A DNA stretch of 61,090 nt, from contig JAHXBT010000016.1 in NCBI GenBank assembly GCA_020054695.1, positions 3,065 through 64,154 on the forward strand, read 5' to 3'. The stretch comes from Rickettsiales bacterium (GTDB taxonomy: Bacteria > Pseudomonadota > Alphaproteobacteria > Rickettsiales > UBA1997). Every line of letters begins with the position of its first letter. Position 1 is the stretch's first letter. The notes beneath the pieces were generated by a model. The model saw only the letters and a program-made list of their open reading frames with translations, was not told where the DNA came from and did no database searches. This document shows positions 2,199 to 53,630 of the stretch, piece by piece. Position numbers and translations under genes: made by a program.

Positions 2199-4337
2199 TT
2201 ATTTTTTAGTGACCAACTCCTTAACGCCAACATAATCAACCTTCCCAGTCCCAAGCAAGGGCAATTCATCAACTATCTTTATTTCTCTTGGAACAGAAAG
2301 TTCGCTAATGCCATTTTTCTTAACAAAAGAGGATATATCAGATCTTCCAGCATCCTTCTTGGTTGTAACTAACACTAATTGCTCACCTTTTTTCTTATCA
2401 GCAACTGCAATGACAGCATGCATATTATCTGGCCACATCTTACTTAAATAAGTTTCCACAGCAGTTAATGAAACCATCTCTCCACCAATTTTGGCAAATC
2501 TTTTAGCTCTACCTTTTATTGATATGTAACCATCTTCATTGATATCAACAATATCTCCAGTGTCATACCAACCATCTTTGGTCGGAATAATCTTTCCGGG
2601 TTTATCTAATAAAAGATATCCTTTCATTACATTTGGTCCTTTAACAAATAATCTTTTTCCATCTTCAATTCCAGGCACATCTTCTAGCCTATGCTCAATT
2701 CCAGGCATTAATCTTCCTACAGTTCCAGGTCTATTATGCATGGGAGTATTAGTTGAAAGTGCTGGTGATGTTTCTGTAGCTCCGTATCCCTCAAATATTC
2801 TAACACCAAATTTTTCTGACCACAATCTTCTAGTTTCTTCATCTAGTTTTTCTGCGCCAGCAAATACATATCGCAGTGAATAAAAGTCATATGCATGAGC
2901 AAATCTAGCGTAATTACTTAGGAATGTATTGGTGCCAAACATGATGGTTGCACCAACATCATAGATTAACTCTGGCACAATACGGTAATGAAGCGGTGAC
3001 GGATAAAAGAATGTTTTAATACCAGATAAAATAGGCAGCAACGTTCCTCCAGTGAGGCCAAATGAGTGAAATATAGGTAAAACGTTAAACACTACATCCC
3101 TATTACTAAAATCAACACGTGAGGCTAATTGGAATCTATTTGATTGTAAATTTTTATGACTTAAAACAACTCCCTTAGGAGCTCCTTCTGATCCAGAAGT
3201 AAATAAAATCACTGCAGGATCGCTAATTTTGGCTTTGTTTATCTTTCTAAAAGATCTATTAGCAACTTTCGATCTTACTAAATTTACAATTTTATCTGTA
3301 ATTTTAATTTCCTTTTTAACATCCTCTAAATAAATAATTTTTACTTTGTTCTTTTCCATTTCTTCTATTAAGTGACCCAGATTTCCACTATCAACAAAAC
3401 GTTTCGAGGTATAAACTATCTTAATCTTAGCTGTTTTACAGGCTGATACCAAATTATTACTTCCTGTAGAAAAGTTAAGCATAGCAGGAACTCTATTGTA
3501 GGCTTGGAAAGCAAAAAAGGTAACAATGCTAGAAGTCATATTAGGAAGCATTAATCCCACATATTCACCATCTTTAGTATTTCTAGAAATCTTATTACCC
3601 AAAGCAAAAGAACCGACGATCAATTGATTGTAAGTCATTGGTTTGCGATCAATATCAACTATAATTTCATGACCGCCTCCGTGGATTGATTTTGCATCTA
3701 AAAGAGACTCAAATAATGTTTTTTTGTAATCTGAACTTTCAAACAGCATATTTGTCATTATGTCATAAAGCTTATTGCCATTTGCTTCCCTTCTATCCCT
3801 TCCCGTTATTTCAGCTGCAACTTCAAACTTTAATGGCTCTAAAATTTTTAATGTTATTTTTGGAAATAACTTAGATTTCACCTTCCCTTTGAGTCTTGAT
3901 AATGGACTGTATTGCGCGCCATCTATTCTAATTGGAAGTATCATTGCATCAGTTTTATCAGCAATCATGCCTGGTCCTTCATAAATTTTCATCAAAGATC
4001 CAGTCACTGTAATTCTACCTTCTGGGAAAATTACGCATTTTCTATTTTTTTTGATTTCAGATATTAAAGATTTAGTTGCCATTGGATTTGTGGGATCAAG
4101 AGCGTAAGTATCAGATACCGCCAAGAATGGTTTCATCCACCACTTATTTGCAATATATGTATTTACTGCAAACATTGGCTTTTCTGGTAAAAAAACTGCT
4201 ATTAAAAGAGCATCTAAAAACGATAGATGATTGGCCACTATTAGCACTCTTTTACCAGCCTTTTTGTAGCTTTTTAAGCCTTCAATCTCAACCTTATAAA
4301 GTCTTTTTAGAATTAATTTTAGTAAGTAATTAAGCAT
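2199..4337 (-). CDS. aas: Bifunctional acyl-ACP synthetase / 2-acylglycerophosphoethanolamine acyltransferase-like (Aas-like)
   Basis: N-terminal PlsC-type acyltransferase (NHLSFLDALL, FPEGRIT) fused to an AMP-binding domain (FTSGSEGAPKGVVLSHKN, GYGATETSP, YDTGDIV). It overlaps an LplT-like gene. Confidence 0.9.
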   Translation of the reverse strand: MLNYLLKLILKRLYKVEIEGLKSYKKAGKRVLIVANHLSFLDALLIAVFLPEKPMFAVNTYIANKWWMKPFLAVSDTYALDPTNPMATKSLISEIKKNRKCVIFPEGRITVTGSLMKIYEGPGMIADKTDAMILPIRIDGAQYSPLSRLKGKVKSKLFPKITLKILEPLKFEVAAEITGRDRREANGNKLYDIMTNMLFESSDYKKTLFESLLDAKSIHGGGHEIIVDIDRKPMTYNQLIVGSFALGNKISRNTKDGEYVGLMLPNMTSSIVTFFAFQAYNRVPAMLNFSTGSNNLVSACKTAKIKIVYTSKRFVDSGNLGHLIEEMEKNKVKIIYLEDVKKEIKITDKIVNLVRSKVANRSFRKINKAKISDPAVILFTSGSEGAPKGVVLSHKNLQSNRFQLASRVDFSNRDVVFNVLPIFHSFGLTGGTLLPILSGIKTFFYPSPLHYRIVPELIYDVGATIMFGTNTFLSNYARFAHAYDFYSLRYVFAGAEKLDEETRRLWSEKFGVRIFEGYGATETSPALSTNTPMHNRPGTVGRLMPGIEHRLEDVPGIEDGKRLFVKGPNVMKGYLLLDKPGKIIPTKDGWYDTGDIVDINEDGYISIKGRAKRFAKIGGEMVSLTAVETYLSKMWPDNMHAVIAVADKKKGEQLVLVTTKKDAGRSDISSFVKKNGISELSVPREIKIVDELPLLGTGKVDYVGVKELVTKK

Positions 4338-39328: not shown

Positions 39329-39931
39329 TTATTCATGCCAGAAAGAACCAAAATATTTATAATTAGTACCGTAAAATACATTGCTAGACATAACCCCCTT
39401 TCCCTGACCACCACTAGCAGTACTACTCCTGGTAAAATCGAAAATATCACTAAAAATATTATTATCCGCAACAGACTGGTCTAATCCAAAACCTAGATTT
39501 TCATCTGAAGAAGTAACCATATTGTCAATACTACCTAAACTCCAATCAAAGTTACTAGGGCTAACAATATAACTATCTGAACCCGCTTCATTTAAAAACC
39601 TTATGACATAGTTAAAACAAAAACCATACCCCCTAGAAACAGCAAATTTATATTCGGAATCTTCTATTAATTTTGGATCATATCTAAAACCTTGACTATA
39701 TCTAGTTCTATAAAAACTATTACCTCTTGAATTTAACACCGTCTCACAACCGTCTCTAAAGCCTTTTTTAAATGTTGGCGTCCCCTCTGGGATCTTAATA
39801 TTAGTTCCGGATAAAAAGGTTGTGTCGGCAGCTTTTAACCACTGACAACCAGCTAAAACCGACAAGATAAGCAATATTATTATTTTAGATAAAAATATTG
39901 TTTTTATATGGGTAAAATAATTTTGACACAT
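39329..39931 (-). CDS. Putative lipoprotein of unknown function
   Basis: Lipobox-like LSVLAGC after a hydrophobic signal; FKKGFRDGCETVLNSRGNSFYRTRYSQGFRYDPKLIEDSEYKFAVSRGYGFCFNYV. Confidence 0.7.
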   Translation of the reverse strand: MCQNYFTHIKTIFLSKIIILLILSVLAGCQWLKAADTTFLSGTNIKIPEGTPTFKKGFRDGCETVLNSRGNSFYRTRYSQGFRYDPKLIEDSEYKFAVSRGYGFCFNYVIRFLNEAGSDSYIVSPSNFDWSLGSIDNMVTSSDENLGFGLDQSVADNNIFSDIFDFTRSSTASGGQGKGVMSSNVFYGTNYKYFGSFWHE

Positions 39932-41247
39932 AATCCTCCATAAGAACCCCTTCCTGCTGAAATTTGACCTCCATGAGAAGTTATAATATCCTTGGCAATA
40001 GATAATCCAAGCCCTGTTCCTATTATATCAAGATTACGAGAAGAGTCAAGCCTATAAAAGGGTTTGAAAATATTATCTATGTTGTTATCCTCCACTCCAT
40101 TGCCATCGTCGTCAATATTAATAATTATGTTATTTTTGCTGGTTTTAATCGAAATATAAATTTGATGCTTGGTATACTTAATAGCGTTGTCGATTATGTT
40201 TCTAATTGCCCTTTTTAAATTATTTACTTTACATGAAACCTTAATGCCAACTCCAACTCTGTTAATATAGCTAATATTGTTATGAATAGATTGATAAGAA
40301 TTTATAATTTCGTTAAAATATTTTTTAGCATATACGTCCCTACTGCTTTCAGATTGATTGCCCCTGTTAAACTCTAGGTATTCATTAATAATTATTTCCA
40401 TATCGTAAATATCTGCCTCCAACTTTGACAACTCTTTGCTCTTTTTCATAACAGCTATCTGTAATTTCATTCTTGTTAACAATGTGCGCAAATCATGAGA
40501 AACGCTAGATAACATAATGGTCCTTTGATTAATTTGACGACTTATTCTTTCTTTCATTCGAATCAAAGACATACCCAAAGATCTAATTTCACTAGCACCT
40601 CTTATCTTAAAATTTACAACATCCATACCCATACCTAGTTTTTGCGCATTTCTTTTTAAATATTTAATGGATTTAACTTGGTTCTTTATAAATAATATAG
40701 AAATTAATGATGTAATGCTAGACATAGCTATAATCCACGCTACAAAAACCCCTCTTCTAGAGGTAATTATTTTCTTCTTCGGCAAGTCTAATTTTAAAAT
40801 ATTATTTTTTAACTGGATTTCTATTATTGCTCGATTTTTATTCTGCGAAGGATAAATAACAAACAAATCTATACCAAACCCTTTTAAGCTCATTCTCAAA
40901 TAAGTAAACGAATCTATAACGGGGAATAGATTAATAAATCCTAAAAACTTTTTAGTTTCATAGTTGTAATATTTCGGATTTATATTTTTACTCTTTATAA
41001 TTTCTGACCTAATGCCAGTTTTTTGAAAAAATTCACTTACTAACTTACCTTCTTTATTTTTTTTATAGATATTATATATAAGGTATATTTGTCCAGACAT
41101 TGATTCTGCCATATGTTTGTTGGTGTTGCTTACATGGTTATAATAAAAAACACAGATGATAGTTACTTGAACCAGAAACAGGGGTATTAATATTATTAAT
41201 AGGAATCGGTTGAGAAGAGATTTGGGTATAAACTTTTTGAAAAACAT
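39904..41247 (-). CDS. Sensor histidine kinase, EnvZ-like
   Basis: Two TM segments flanking a sensor, HAMP-like linker, SSVSHDLRTLLTRMKLQIAVMKKSKEL (H-box), NIIDNAIKYTKH (N-box), DDGNGV, GTGLGLSIAKDIITSHGG. Confidence 0.93.
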   Translation of the reverse strand: MFFKKFIPKSLLNRFLLIILIPLFLVQVTIICVFYYNHVSNTNKHMAESMSGQIYLIYNIYKKNKEGKLVSEFFQKTGIRSEIIKSKNINPKYYNYETKKFLGFINLFPVIDSFTYLRMSLKGFGIDLFVIYPSQNKNRAIIEIQLKNNILKLDLPKKKIITSRRGVFVAWIIAMSSITSLISILFIKNQVKSIKYLKRNAQKLGMGMDVVNFKIRGASEIRSLGMSLIRMKERISRQINQRTIMLSSVSHDLRTLLTRMKLQIAVMKKSKELSKLEADIYDMEIIINEYLEFNRGNQSESSRDVYAKKYFNEIINSYQSIHNNISYINRVGVGIKVSCKVNNLKRAIRNIIDNAIKYTKHQIYISIKTSKNNIIINIDDDGNGVEDNNIDNIFKPFYRLDSSRNLDIIGTGLGLSIAKDIITSHGGQISAGRGSYGGLCVKIILPI

Positions 41248-42164
41248 TATTTTTTATCAAGCAAATCTATGATATTTGTTATTTTATCTATATCATTAAA
41301 ACATATAGTAATCTTGCCTTTATTATTTTTAGGGTTAAATTGAGACTTTATTGTAACGTTTGAACCTAATATATTTTTTAAATTTTCTGTTAAATTTTGA
41401 GCTTGTTGATTGTGTTTTTTAACACCCACCTCTTTTTTGATGTTAATGCCCTCGGAAGGAATCATCTCTTTTGTTAAGTCTGAACATAACGCTTCGGTTT
41501 GCCTTACAGACAGCGACTCAGAATTTATTATTTTAGCTATTTTAACTATGTCGTTACGATTCATTATTACCTTAACATGGCCCATTGTTAACAATTTATC
41601 TTCTATCATCTTTTGAATCTCTATAGGCAATGCAATTAATCTTAACAAATTAGCAACATGACTACGACTTTTTCCAATTTTATGCGCTATATCTTTTTGA
41701 GAATAATGAAACTCTTCTATTAATTGGTTATAAGCTCTTGATTCTTCTAGTATTGACAAATCTTCTCTTTGTATATTTTCTAATATACCCACAGCCAAAA
41801 CCTGATCATTTTCTATATCACGAATAATAGCTGGAACCTCTTTCAACTCAGCCATTTTGGCCGCCCTAAACCTTCTTTCACCAGATATAATTTCATAAAT
41901 ATCTTGACCCTTGCTAGCCTTCCTGATAATGATTGGCTGTATAATTCCATATTCTTTTATAGAATCGCATAATTCAGATATTGTATTGTTGTCAAAATTT
42001 GTTCTTGGTTGATATATTCCTGCGATAATTTTGCTAATTGGAATTTGATAAACAGTGTACCCCCTACCAATACTTGTCATCTGAACCCTATTATTATTTA
42101 ACTTTCTTTCTTCCCCAAGTAAGACCGAAAGACCCCTTCCTAATTTTGGATGATTATTGGACAT
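41247..42164 (-). CDS. parB: Chromosome partitioning protein ParB
   Basis: KLGRGLSVLLGE, IIAGIYQPRTNFD, ISGERRFRAAKMAELKEVPAIIR, LENIQREDLSILEESRAYNQLIEEF, HTH KDIAHKIGKSRSHVANLLRL. Confidence 0.95.
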   Translation of the reverse strand: MSNNHPKLGRGLSVLLGEERKLNNNRVQMTSIGRGYTVYQIPISKIIAGIYQPRTNFDNNTISELCDSIKEYGIIQPIIIRKASKGQDIYEIISGERRFRAAKMAELKEVPAIIRDIENDQVLAVGILENIQREDLSILEESRAYNQLIEEFHYSQKDIAHKIGKSRSHVANLLRLIALPIEIQKMIEDKLLTMGHVKVIMNRNDIVKIAKIINSESLSVRQTEALCSDLTKEMIPSEGINIKKEVGVKKHNQQAQNLTENLKNILGSNVTIKSQFNPKNNKGKITICFNDIDKITNIIDLLDKK

Positions 42165-50693: not shown

Positions 50694-52103
50694 TCAAGAA
50701 TTCATTGAAGTAAAAAACTCTTTGTTATTCTGTGTGTTTTTAATTTTTTCTGATAAAAATTCCATAGCCTCAATAGAATTCATAGATCCTATTATTTTTC
50801 TTATCATCCAGGTTTTTGAAAGGGTAGATTTGTCGATTAATAAATCTTCTCTTCTTGTGCCAGATTTAGTAATATCAATAGCTGGGTAAATCCTTTTATC
50901 AGATAATTTACGATCAAGAACAATTTCTGAATTACCAGTTCCTTTAAATTCTTCAAAAATTACCTCATCCATTCTAGATCCAGTATCAACTAAAGCAGTA
51001 CCAATTATTGTTAAAGACCCTCCTTGCTCTATATTTCTAGCGGCACCAAAAAATCTTTTAGGCTTCTGTAAAGCATTAGCATCAACACCACCTGTTAGAA
51101 CCTTACCAGAAGAAGGAACAATTGTATTATAAGCCCTTGCTAATCTTGTAATTGAGTCAAGTAAAATAACTACGTCCTTTTTTGACTCAACTAATCTTTT
51201 GGCTTTTTCAATAACCATTTCAGCTAATTGTACATGTCTTATAGCGGATTCATCAAAAGTTGAACTAACAACTTCACCTTTTACAGACCTCCTCATATCA
51301 GTTACTTCTTCTGGTCTTTCATCAATTAATAACACCATTAACGTTACTTCTGGATGATTTGTAGTAATTGATCTTGCAATATTTTGCATTAAATATGTTT
51401 TACCTGTCCTAGGTGGTGCAACAATAAGAGCTCTTTGCCCTTTTCCTAATGGAGAGGTTAAATCAATCAATCTAGCACCTAATTCACTTGATTTTTTTCC
51501 TTCCATCTCTAACTTCAGTCTCTCATTAGGATATAAAGGTGTTAAATCATCAAATAAAATTCTATTTTTAGAAAAATCAACATCTTCATGATTTATTTTA
51601 CTAACTTTTAGTAAAGCAAAATACCTCTCTCCCTTCTTAGGAGCACGAACTTGCCCTGTAATTACATCACCTTTCCTAAGTCCAAATCTTTTTATTTGAT
51701 TAGGAGAGATGTAGATATCATCAGATCCTTGTTGATAATTAGTTTCATTAGTTCTTAAAAATCCAAAACCATCTACTAAAATCTCCAAAACACCCTCACC
51801 AATAATTACATTATTATAGCTTTTCATTGAAAAGCTTTTTAAAATTTGATATATTAATTCTTGCTTACCAAGTTCGTTAACATTATCAATATTATACTCT
51901 TGTGCTAATTTAATAATATCTTCAACATTACTAGATTTAAGACTTTTTAACTCCATAGTCTCTACTTCCTTAGGAGTTTTATTATTGTCTTCTCTTTCAT
52001 TTTTATTTTTATCGGTATCATTAATATTCTCCTGCTCTTTATCATTAGTGTTTTTTAAGAATCTTCTTCCTCTTGTAGGTGAGGCTGTTTTAATTATAGT
52101 CAT
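50694..52103 (-). CDS. rho: Transcription termination factor Rho
   Basis: [96 protein letters not shown]. Confidence 0.97.
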
Positions 52104-52595
52104 ATTAATTTAATAAATAAAATGAGGTGTTTGCCTTAAAATTAACTTATTTATTCGTTTATATCTAATTTTCTAATGAAAAATTAAGGCAGGGAAAATG
52201 TAATATAATAAAGAAAAATTAATATTATTTCAATAAACTTTATATAACATCTGAACATCAAAAATTACCATTCCCTGAAAAAAGGAAATAATAAAAACAA
52301 AACACAATCTAGTTGGTACTTTTTTATTCGTCAAGAAAAATGTTAATAAAATGTTAATAAATATATTAATATTAACATGGTTCAAAAAATCATAGTAAAC
52401 TAAGTTATATTAAACATTTTTTTAACAACTTTATTAACTATTAGTAAAACTTCTTAAACTATTTATTAATATTTTTGATAAAAAAATACCCTTATATATA
52501 AAGGGTTAAAAAAAATTATGTTGTTAATAAATTTGTTAATTAATATAATAAACTTAAACTTACTACTTATTACTATAATATAACTATTATATATT
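52104..52595. other. Candidate chromosomal replication origin (oriC) region
   Basis: 492-bp, extremely AT-rich rho-hemE gap; exact TTAA-N7-TTAA at 52343-52357; several more TTAA-N8-TTAA pairs; hairpin ACCCTTATATATAAAGGGT; hemE-adjacent as in characterised alphaproteobacterial origins. Confidence 0.65.
52488..52506. repeat. Inverted repeat in the rho-hemE gap
   Basis: ACCCTT-ATATATA-AAGGGT. Confidence 0.8.
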
Positions 52596-53630
52596 TTGAA
52601 ATTATTAAATACTTTAAAAGGTAAAAAAACAGTTACACCTCCAATATGGTTAATGAGACAAGCTGGTAGATACCTACCGGAATATAAAGAAATTAGAGAA
52701 AAAGAGTTAAATTTCTTAGATTTGTGTTATAATCCAAAATTAGCATCTAAAATCACTTTACAACCAATAAAAAGATATGGGTTTGATGGAGCAATATTAT
52801 TTTCTGATATCCTAGTTATACCAGATGCTTTAGGAATAAAAACAGAATTTATTAAAAATGTTGGACCTAAATTAAATCCTATTACCACAGAAAAAGACTT
52901 AAATAACCTAAGGATAAATAATATTAAAAACCATCTTAATCCAGTTTTTGAAACTATAAATCTTGTTAAGTCGCAAAAACCTAAAGAAACAAATTTAATT
53001 GGTTTTAGTGGCTCACCTTGGACAATTGCAACGTATATTATTGAAGGTGGTTCATCTAAAAATTTTGAAAAAATACGGTCTATAGCTATAAAAGATGAAG
53101 ATTTTTTTCAAAAGTTAATAGATATCTTAATAAGCTCCATTATAGAATATTTATCATATCAAATTGAGTCAGGGGTTGAAATTATTCAGCTTTTTGATTC
53201 TTGGGCAGGAATTTTGCCAGAAAGTGAATTTAGTAAATGGGTTTTAAATCCGAATAAAAAAATTATTGATACTATAAAAGAAAGATATCCAGAAATTCCA
53301 ATTATTTTATTTGCTAAAAACTCTGGTCTTTTGAATGAAAATATTTGTCAAAATATAAAATTTGATTGTCTAGCGATTGATCAAAATTTACCCAAAAAGT
53401 GGGTCAAGGATGTTATTCAAAATAAATACAGTAAAATTATACAAGGAAATTTAGATAATATTTTACTTTGCTATGGATCAAAGGATCAGATTAAAAAAGA
53501 AGTTATTAATATTTTAGATAGCTTTAATGATTACCCATTTATTTTTAATCTAGGACATGGAGTTTTAAAGGATACTCCGATTGAAAATGTTGAATTTGTC
53601 TTAGATTTAGTAAGGAGTTATAAAAAGTAG
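52596..53630 (+). CDS. hemE: Uroporphyrinogen decarboxylase
   Basis: PPIWLMRQAGRYLPEYKEIR, GFDGAILFSDILVIPDALG, GFSGSPWTIATYIIEGG, FDSWAGILPESEF, FNLGHGVLKDTPIENV; TTG start. Confidence 0.97.
   Translation: MKLLNTLKGKKTVTPPIWLMRQAGRYLPEYKEIREKELNFLDLCYNPKLASKITLQPIKRYGFDGAILFSDILVIPDALGIKTEFIKNVGPKLNPITTEKDLNNLRINNIKNHLNPVFETINLVKSQKPKETNLIGFSGSPWTIATYIIEGGSSKNFEKIRSIAIKDEDFFQKLIDILISSIIEYLSYQIESGVEIIQLFDSWAGILPESEFSKWVLNPNKKIIDTIKERYPEIPIILFAKNSGLLNENICQNIKFDCLAIDQNLPKKWVKDVIQNKYSKIIQGNLDNILLCYGSKDQIKKEVINILDSFNDYPFIFNLGHGVLKDTPIENVEFVLDLVRSYKK

Follow-up and report, generated by a model that had tools for sequence, protein, structure and literature searches.

A putative chromosomal replication origin with predicted AT-shifted DnaA boxes in the rho-hemE intergenic region of a Rickettsiales-like genome

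The intergenic gap between rho and hemE (positions 52104..52595 of the window, 492 bp, 16.7% GC) very probably serves as the origin of chromosome replication in this Rickettsiales-like bacterium. The assignment is well supported because strand asymmetry, the proximity of parS and parB, a unique cluster of nonamers, and the conservation of the layout within the family all agree with it, and the proposal of the initial annotation that this AT-rich gap is a candidate origin was thus borne out. We consider it highly likely that the gap functions as an oriC in which DnaA is predicted to assemble on AT-shifted boxes and in which initiation probably proceeds without CtrA and HU/IHF.

The window, i.e., the whole stretch of 61,090 nucleotides that was analyzed, covers positions 3065-64154 of contig C3 (173,667 bp) of a MAG with 44 contigs, 1.11 Mb, and a completeness of 82.6%; the gap is located at 55.2-55.7 kb of this contig. 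Genome-wide counts cover 1.02 of the 1.11 Mb. The genome of the window (G000) belongs to a family, f1, of which 28 genomes (G000-G027) were compared with one genome each of 21 other families of the order (G028-G048). Its genus is represented by G000, G001, and G002, the last being 97% complete. The gap is flanked by the divergent genes rho, encoding transcription termination factor (50694..52103, minus strand; TIGR00767, 678 bits), and hemE, encoding uroporphyrinogen decarboxylase (52596..53630, plus strand; TIGR01464, 390 bits). The apparent TTG start codon of hemE at 52596 is aligned in all three genus members, and most other family members have ATG. The gene directions are broadly as initially annotated, with parB, mreC, and secA running leftward and hemE, recR, an lpxL-like gene, ftsH, and crcB running rightward, except that a gene for a 2Fe-2S thioredoxin-like protein and one for a signal peptidase directly past hemE point leftward. 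Relative to the gap, the leading strand carries ~61% of the coding bases. The gap thus has hemE as the boundary gene of the hemE-type alphaproteobacterial origins, and rho was found at the second boundary instead of COG1806 or COG1253. The closest named HemE matches were from MAGs labelled Rickettsiales and Rickettsia typhi, each with 58% identity, so that the assignment to the order is tentative. For the latter (L114, CAMAXU010000012.1), both HemE and the upstream boxes group with the family, and the species label looks wrong from these sequences.

A cumulative GC-skew plot had been suggested as a check of the origin. On contig C3 the raw curve has its minimum at 99 kb; since it is driven by gene direction, it was replaced by an analysis of fourfold-degenerate sites by gene strand. 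This analysis revealed one strong minus-to-plus switch. The single-switch likelihood ratio was 31-32 over 53-66 kb of C3, 26 at 50 kb, and ~0 at <40 kb and >95 kb, and none of 200 permutations reached an equally high value. The gap lies inside the plateau. As the nominal best switch point was 66 kb when a finer step was used, the asymmetry places the switch in a broad zone (~50-66 kb) that contains the gap and not at the gap itself. No strong internal switch was present in any other contig examined, and in the sister species G002 alone the switch was not significant (p 0.29). In the family member G004, hemE lies at 168 kb of contig C2, but the strongest minus-to-plus switch was found at ~45 kb (40-50 kb, L195), with 72 kb of the intervening sequence masked; this second, stronger switch, ~120 kb from hemE, perhaps reflects an inversion.

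The search for parS near parB, likewise proposed at the outset, was successful. When a single mismatch was allowed, the parS-like 16-mer TGTTCCACGTGGAACA was found within the 1.02 Mb only at positions 65,215, 67,257, and 67,857 of C3, that is, 10-12 kb from the gap on the hemE side and just beyond the window. The gene for the chromosome partitioning protein ParB (41247..42164, minus strand; TIGR00180, 189 bits; PF02195 and PF17762) lies on the opposite side, and its annotated distance of about 10 kb from the gap proved correct. In G002, three exact copies of TGTTCCACGTGGAACA are located at 3,528, 4,508, and 6,678 of the contig, 9-13 kb from the gap near 16.2 kb and also on the hemE side. Both species therefore have three sites near the gap, as expected for a ParABS-linked origin region.

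Canonical DnaA boxes had not been obvious in the gap, and in fact TTATNCACA was absent from it; no pair of such boxes within 300 bp was found anywhere in the 1.02 Mb. The nonamer TTATTAACA, on the other hand, was observed three times in the gap versus 0.08-0.15 expected, and these three are the only exact nonamers there. The derived consensus TTAT[TC]AACA occurs 138 times in the 1.02 Mb; the three copies of the gap lie within 190 bp, and no other two are found within 250 bp of each other. With this consensus, the gap contains the kind of box cluster expected of a DnaA-dependent oriC. Two copies form a pair on the rho side (52341..52349 and 52352..52360, both on the minus strand), the first of which is identical in G002 and found at a comparable position in most family members. 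They are separated by 2 bp, a spacing described as optimal for the formation of a DnaA filament (PMC8235120). The third copy is hemE proximal (52522..52530, minus strand), is conserved in G001 and G002, and recurs across the family about 75 bp upstream of hemE. Further DnaA-box-like nonamers are the inverted ATATTAACA (52369..52377, plus strand; one mismatch; 8 of 9 bases shared with G002), the central TTATTAACT (52431..52439, plus strand; one mismatch; 9 of 9 bases shared with G002), the weak TTTTTAACA (52419..52427, plus strand), which is not conserved in the sister species, and a second hemE-proximal nonamer, TAATTAACA (52534..52542, minus strand). The place of the inverted nonamer is taken by an exact TTATTAACA or TTATCAACA in seven family members (G003, G004, G010, G013, G018, G020, and G024), and the place homologous to TAATTAACA holds the canonical box TTATCCACA in two relatives, G004 and G015.

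In the comparison of G000 with G002, identity amounts to 90% for the nonamers and to 65% for the gap as a whole (circular-shift p 0.002). Across the family, two sets of nonamers recur upstream of hemE at comparable distances: a group between about -240 and -330, frequently accompanied by an inverted box 17-18 bp beyond it, and a pair between about -60 and -95. The two named MAGs with the closest HemE matches carry the canonical TTATCCACA in a central position. The pair TGTTRATAA-N2-3-TGTTRATAA was present in 18 of the 28 family genomes versus 1 of the 21 others, in every case beside hemE where both share a contig. In half of the family genomes (G005, G007-G009, G011, G012, G016, G017, G019, G021, G022, and G025-G027) hemE was unmatched, and six of these contain the box pair in differing gene contexts. 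The interpretation of the repeats in the gap as putative AT-shifted, derived DnaA boxes is well supported by homology.

The initial annotation had instead emphasized CtrA. In an origin of the Caulobacter and Rickettsia type, phosphorylated CtrA would bind TTAA pairs and repress initiation, and both the hemE flank, which resembles that of Caulobacter and Rickettsia (PMC1914354), and the enrichment of 8-bp-spaced TTAA pairs speak for this explanation. The TTAA-N7-TTAA motif TTAATAAAATGTTAA is indeed present at 52343-52357; as a single distinct site with 2 strand-counted hits versus 1.2-1.4 expected (p 0.43-0.50), it is at chance level. For the 8-bp spacing, at least three further pairs had been claimed, and five distinct sites were found (52354, 52410, 52422, 52454, and 52524), corresponding to 10 strand-counted hits versus 1.2-1.4 expected (p ~0.001). 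In the N7 site and in the pairs at 52422 and 52524, both TTAA sequences lie inside DnaA-box-like nonamers; the same holds true for one TTAA of the pair at 52354, and the pairs at 52410 and 52454 are not kept in G002. It is evident directly from the sequence that two TTATTAACA boxes of the same direction 2 bp apart, such as the rho-side pair, necessarily create TTAA-N7-TTAA. The motif would then be a by-product of neighbouring boxes and not a CtrA site, a reading that we hold, jointly with the whole origin explanation, with high confidence.

The gene content argues against CtrA in the same direction. The domain Trans_reg_C (PF00486, the CtrA-type DNA-binding domain) had no match in G000, G001, or the 97% complete G002, although the controls were matched, so that the suggested search of the genome for ctrA gave a negative result. 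With a protein of G045 as CtrA query (298 bits to NF045991, by far its best family, at a cut-off of 350 that it does not reach), no ortholog was detected in the 28 family genomes; the best matches were 27-34% identical, and those scanned scored best as OmpR, KdpE, VanR, or PmrA types. In 15 other families, orthologs with 49-59% identity to the query were found, and two more had matches with 39-40%. Granulibacter and Pelagibacter are also reported to lack ctrA (PMC2877005). As the conserved elements of the gap are the nonamers and not the TTAA dyads, we rejected CtrA sites in the gap, and a CtrA-repressed origin appears very improbable. The HU/IHF family (PF00216) had no match in G000 or G002, but it was present in G045 and in all four further members of the family that were searched (G004, G010, G015, and G018), so that an IHF-assisted origin finds no counterpart in these two genomes. 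Because CtrA was not found in the family and HU/IHF not in the genus, initiation is probably achieved without these regulators. An EnvZ/CpxA-like sensor kinase is encoded next to parB (39904-41247, minus strand), and since no OmpR-type response regulator (PF00486) was matched in the genome, its usual partner seems to be absent; most other family members retain one OmpR-type regulator.

Two further types of element found no support in the gap. The annotated hairpin ACCCTTATATATAAAGGGT exists as an inverted repeat at 52488..52506, but it folds no better than shuffled sequences (z = -0.17) and is not visible in G002; it was dismissed as a functional element and is probably incidental. A search for RNA elements gave a single sub-threshold chance match.

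An origin located elsewhere in the neighborhood or the genome would leave the gap as an AT-rich divergent promoter region with nonamers of another regulatory function. The width of the asymmetry plateau, the position of the raw skew minimum, and the stronger second switch in G004 could be taken in this sense, but they are opposed by the uniqueness of the nonamer cluster, the parS distance in two species, and the canonical boxes at homologous places in relatives. The dnaA gene is located on contig C12 and not on C3. A dnaA-adjacent origin was discarded, as gene direction changes where the raw skew of this contig has its minimum near dnaA, and the contig shows neither a box cluster nor a fourfold-site switch. 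Overall, an origin outside the gap is unlikely.

The origin call is also compatible with the assumption that the drift to TTATTAACA merely follows the low GC content and that the specificity of DnaA is unchanged, which competes with a co-evolution of DnaA and its boxes. The boxes have shifted toward A/T, and the genomes concerned are AT-rich; TTATTAACA also represents putative DnaA boxes in Mycoplasma hominis, M. mobile, and M. arthritidis, where the oriC lies upstream of dnaA in an unrelated lineage (PMC2751442). Of 80 boxes from the family, 71 have A and 7 have C at position 6, compared with 15 and 42, respectively, of 61 boxes from other families. Base composition alone does not account for this shift, because G015, with 34% GC upstream, uses A at this position in five of six boxes, whereas G029, with 29% GC, has CC in 11 of 14; a DnaA protein was not found for G029. 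In E. coli DnaA, base contacts involve residues 399, 423, 432-435, and 438-439 (PMC5043019), with D433 placed at box position 7, not 6 (PMC8235120). Residue 433 is altered in all 27 readable proteins of the family (N in 22, S in 3, H in 2). Among the 19 readable proteins from other families, 18 carry D at this residue and that of G041 carries T; in place of T435, the family has mostly A and rarely S or G. In the genus of the window, the loop before the helix with residue 433 is one residue shorter (FNKNHATV versus FGGKNHATV in G004). As these changes of boxes and DnaA are family-wide and the relatives are not independent, they count as about one evolutionary event. G041, from another family (L286, L290), combines T433 with a single TGTTAATAA pair and the lack of an OmpR-type regulator, and is possibly an independent parallel case. 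G036 and G044 keep D433 without a clear CtrA, so that loss of CtrA and change of D433 are not strictly linked. Taken together, drift under an unchanged DnaA specificity has somewhat less than an even chance, and it is plausible from the comparison of proteins and boxes that DnaA specificity co-evolved with the boxes.

The origins of Caulobacter crescentus (Cori) and Rickettsia prowazekii lie in the hemE-COG1806 gap (PMC1914354). The gap described here is similarly intergenic, beside hemE, AT-richer than the genome, and ~400-500 bp long, but differs in its rho flank, in the lack of canonical boxes, and in that a CtrA gene was not found and HU/IHF were not found in the genus. In Wolbachia, Ehrlichia, and Anaplasma, the origin lies in the COG1253-hemE gap, again with hemE on one side and a changed gene on the other; these origins were predicted by TTATNCACA, CtrA, and IHF criteria (PMC1914354), which miss the origin here. 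A changed box core is also known from epsilonproteobacterial oriC regions, where it was attributed to helix 5 of DnaA domain IV (PMC5043019); there, T is found at position 5, whereas here A is found at position 6 and a conserved aspartate is replaced.

We propose that DnaA would assemble on AT-shifted boxes arranged in two groups. The rho-side group has two to three boxes and the other is a pair ~75 bp before hemE; within each pair, the boxes are spaced by 2-3 bp. The very AT-rich DNA around and between these groups may then open. Initiation would probably be run by DnaA without CtrA or HU/IHF, the two usual regulators of alphaproteobacterial origins; DnaA binding, unwinding site, and regulation at the gap are inferred. 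Predictions of Rickettsiales origins have relied on the canonical motifs of DnaA, CtrA, and IHF, and all three criteria fail here, yet the origin could be located. As TTAA-N7-TTAA can arise from TTATTAACA boxes 2 bp apart, motif-based calls of CtrA sites in AT-rich genomes should be checked against the presence of a ctrA gene. With about equal odds for and against, this Rickettsiales family may have lost CtrA, changed the near-universal D433 of DnaA to N, S, or H and T435 to A, and shifted its boxes from TTATCCACA to TTAT[TC]AACA, after which one genus would have lost HU/IHF, leaving an origin without either regulator. If the change in DnaA is real, it would represent a natural change of initiator specificity.
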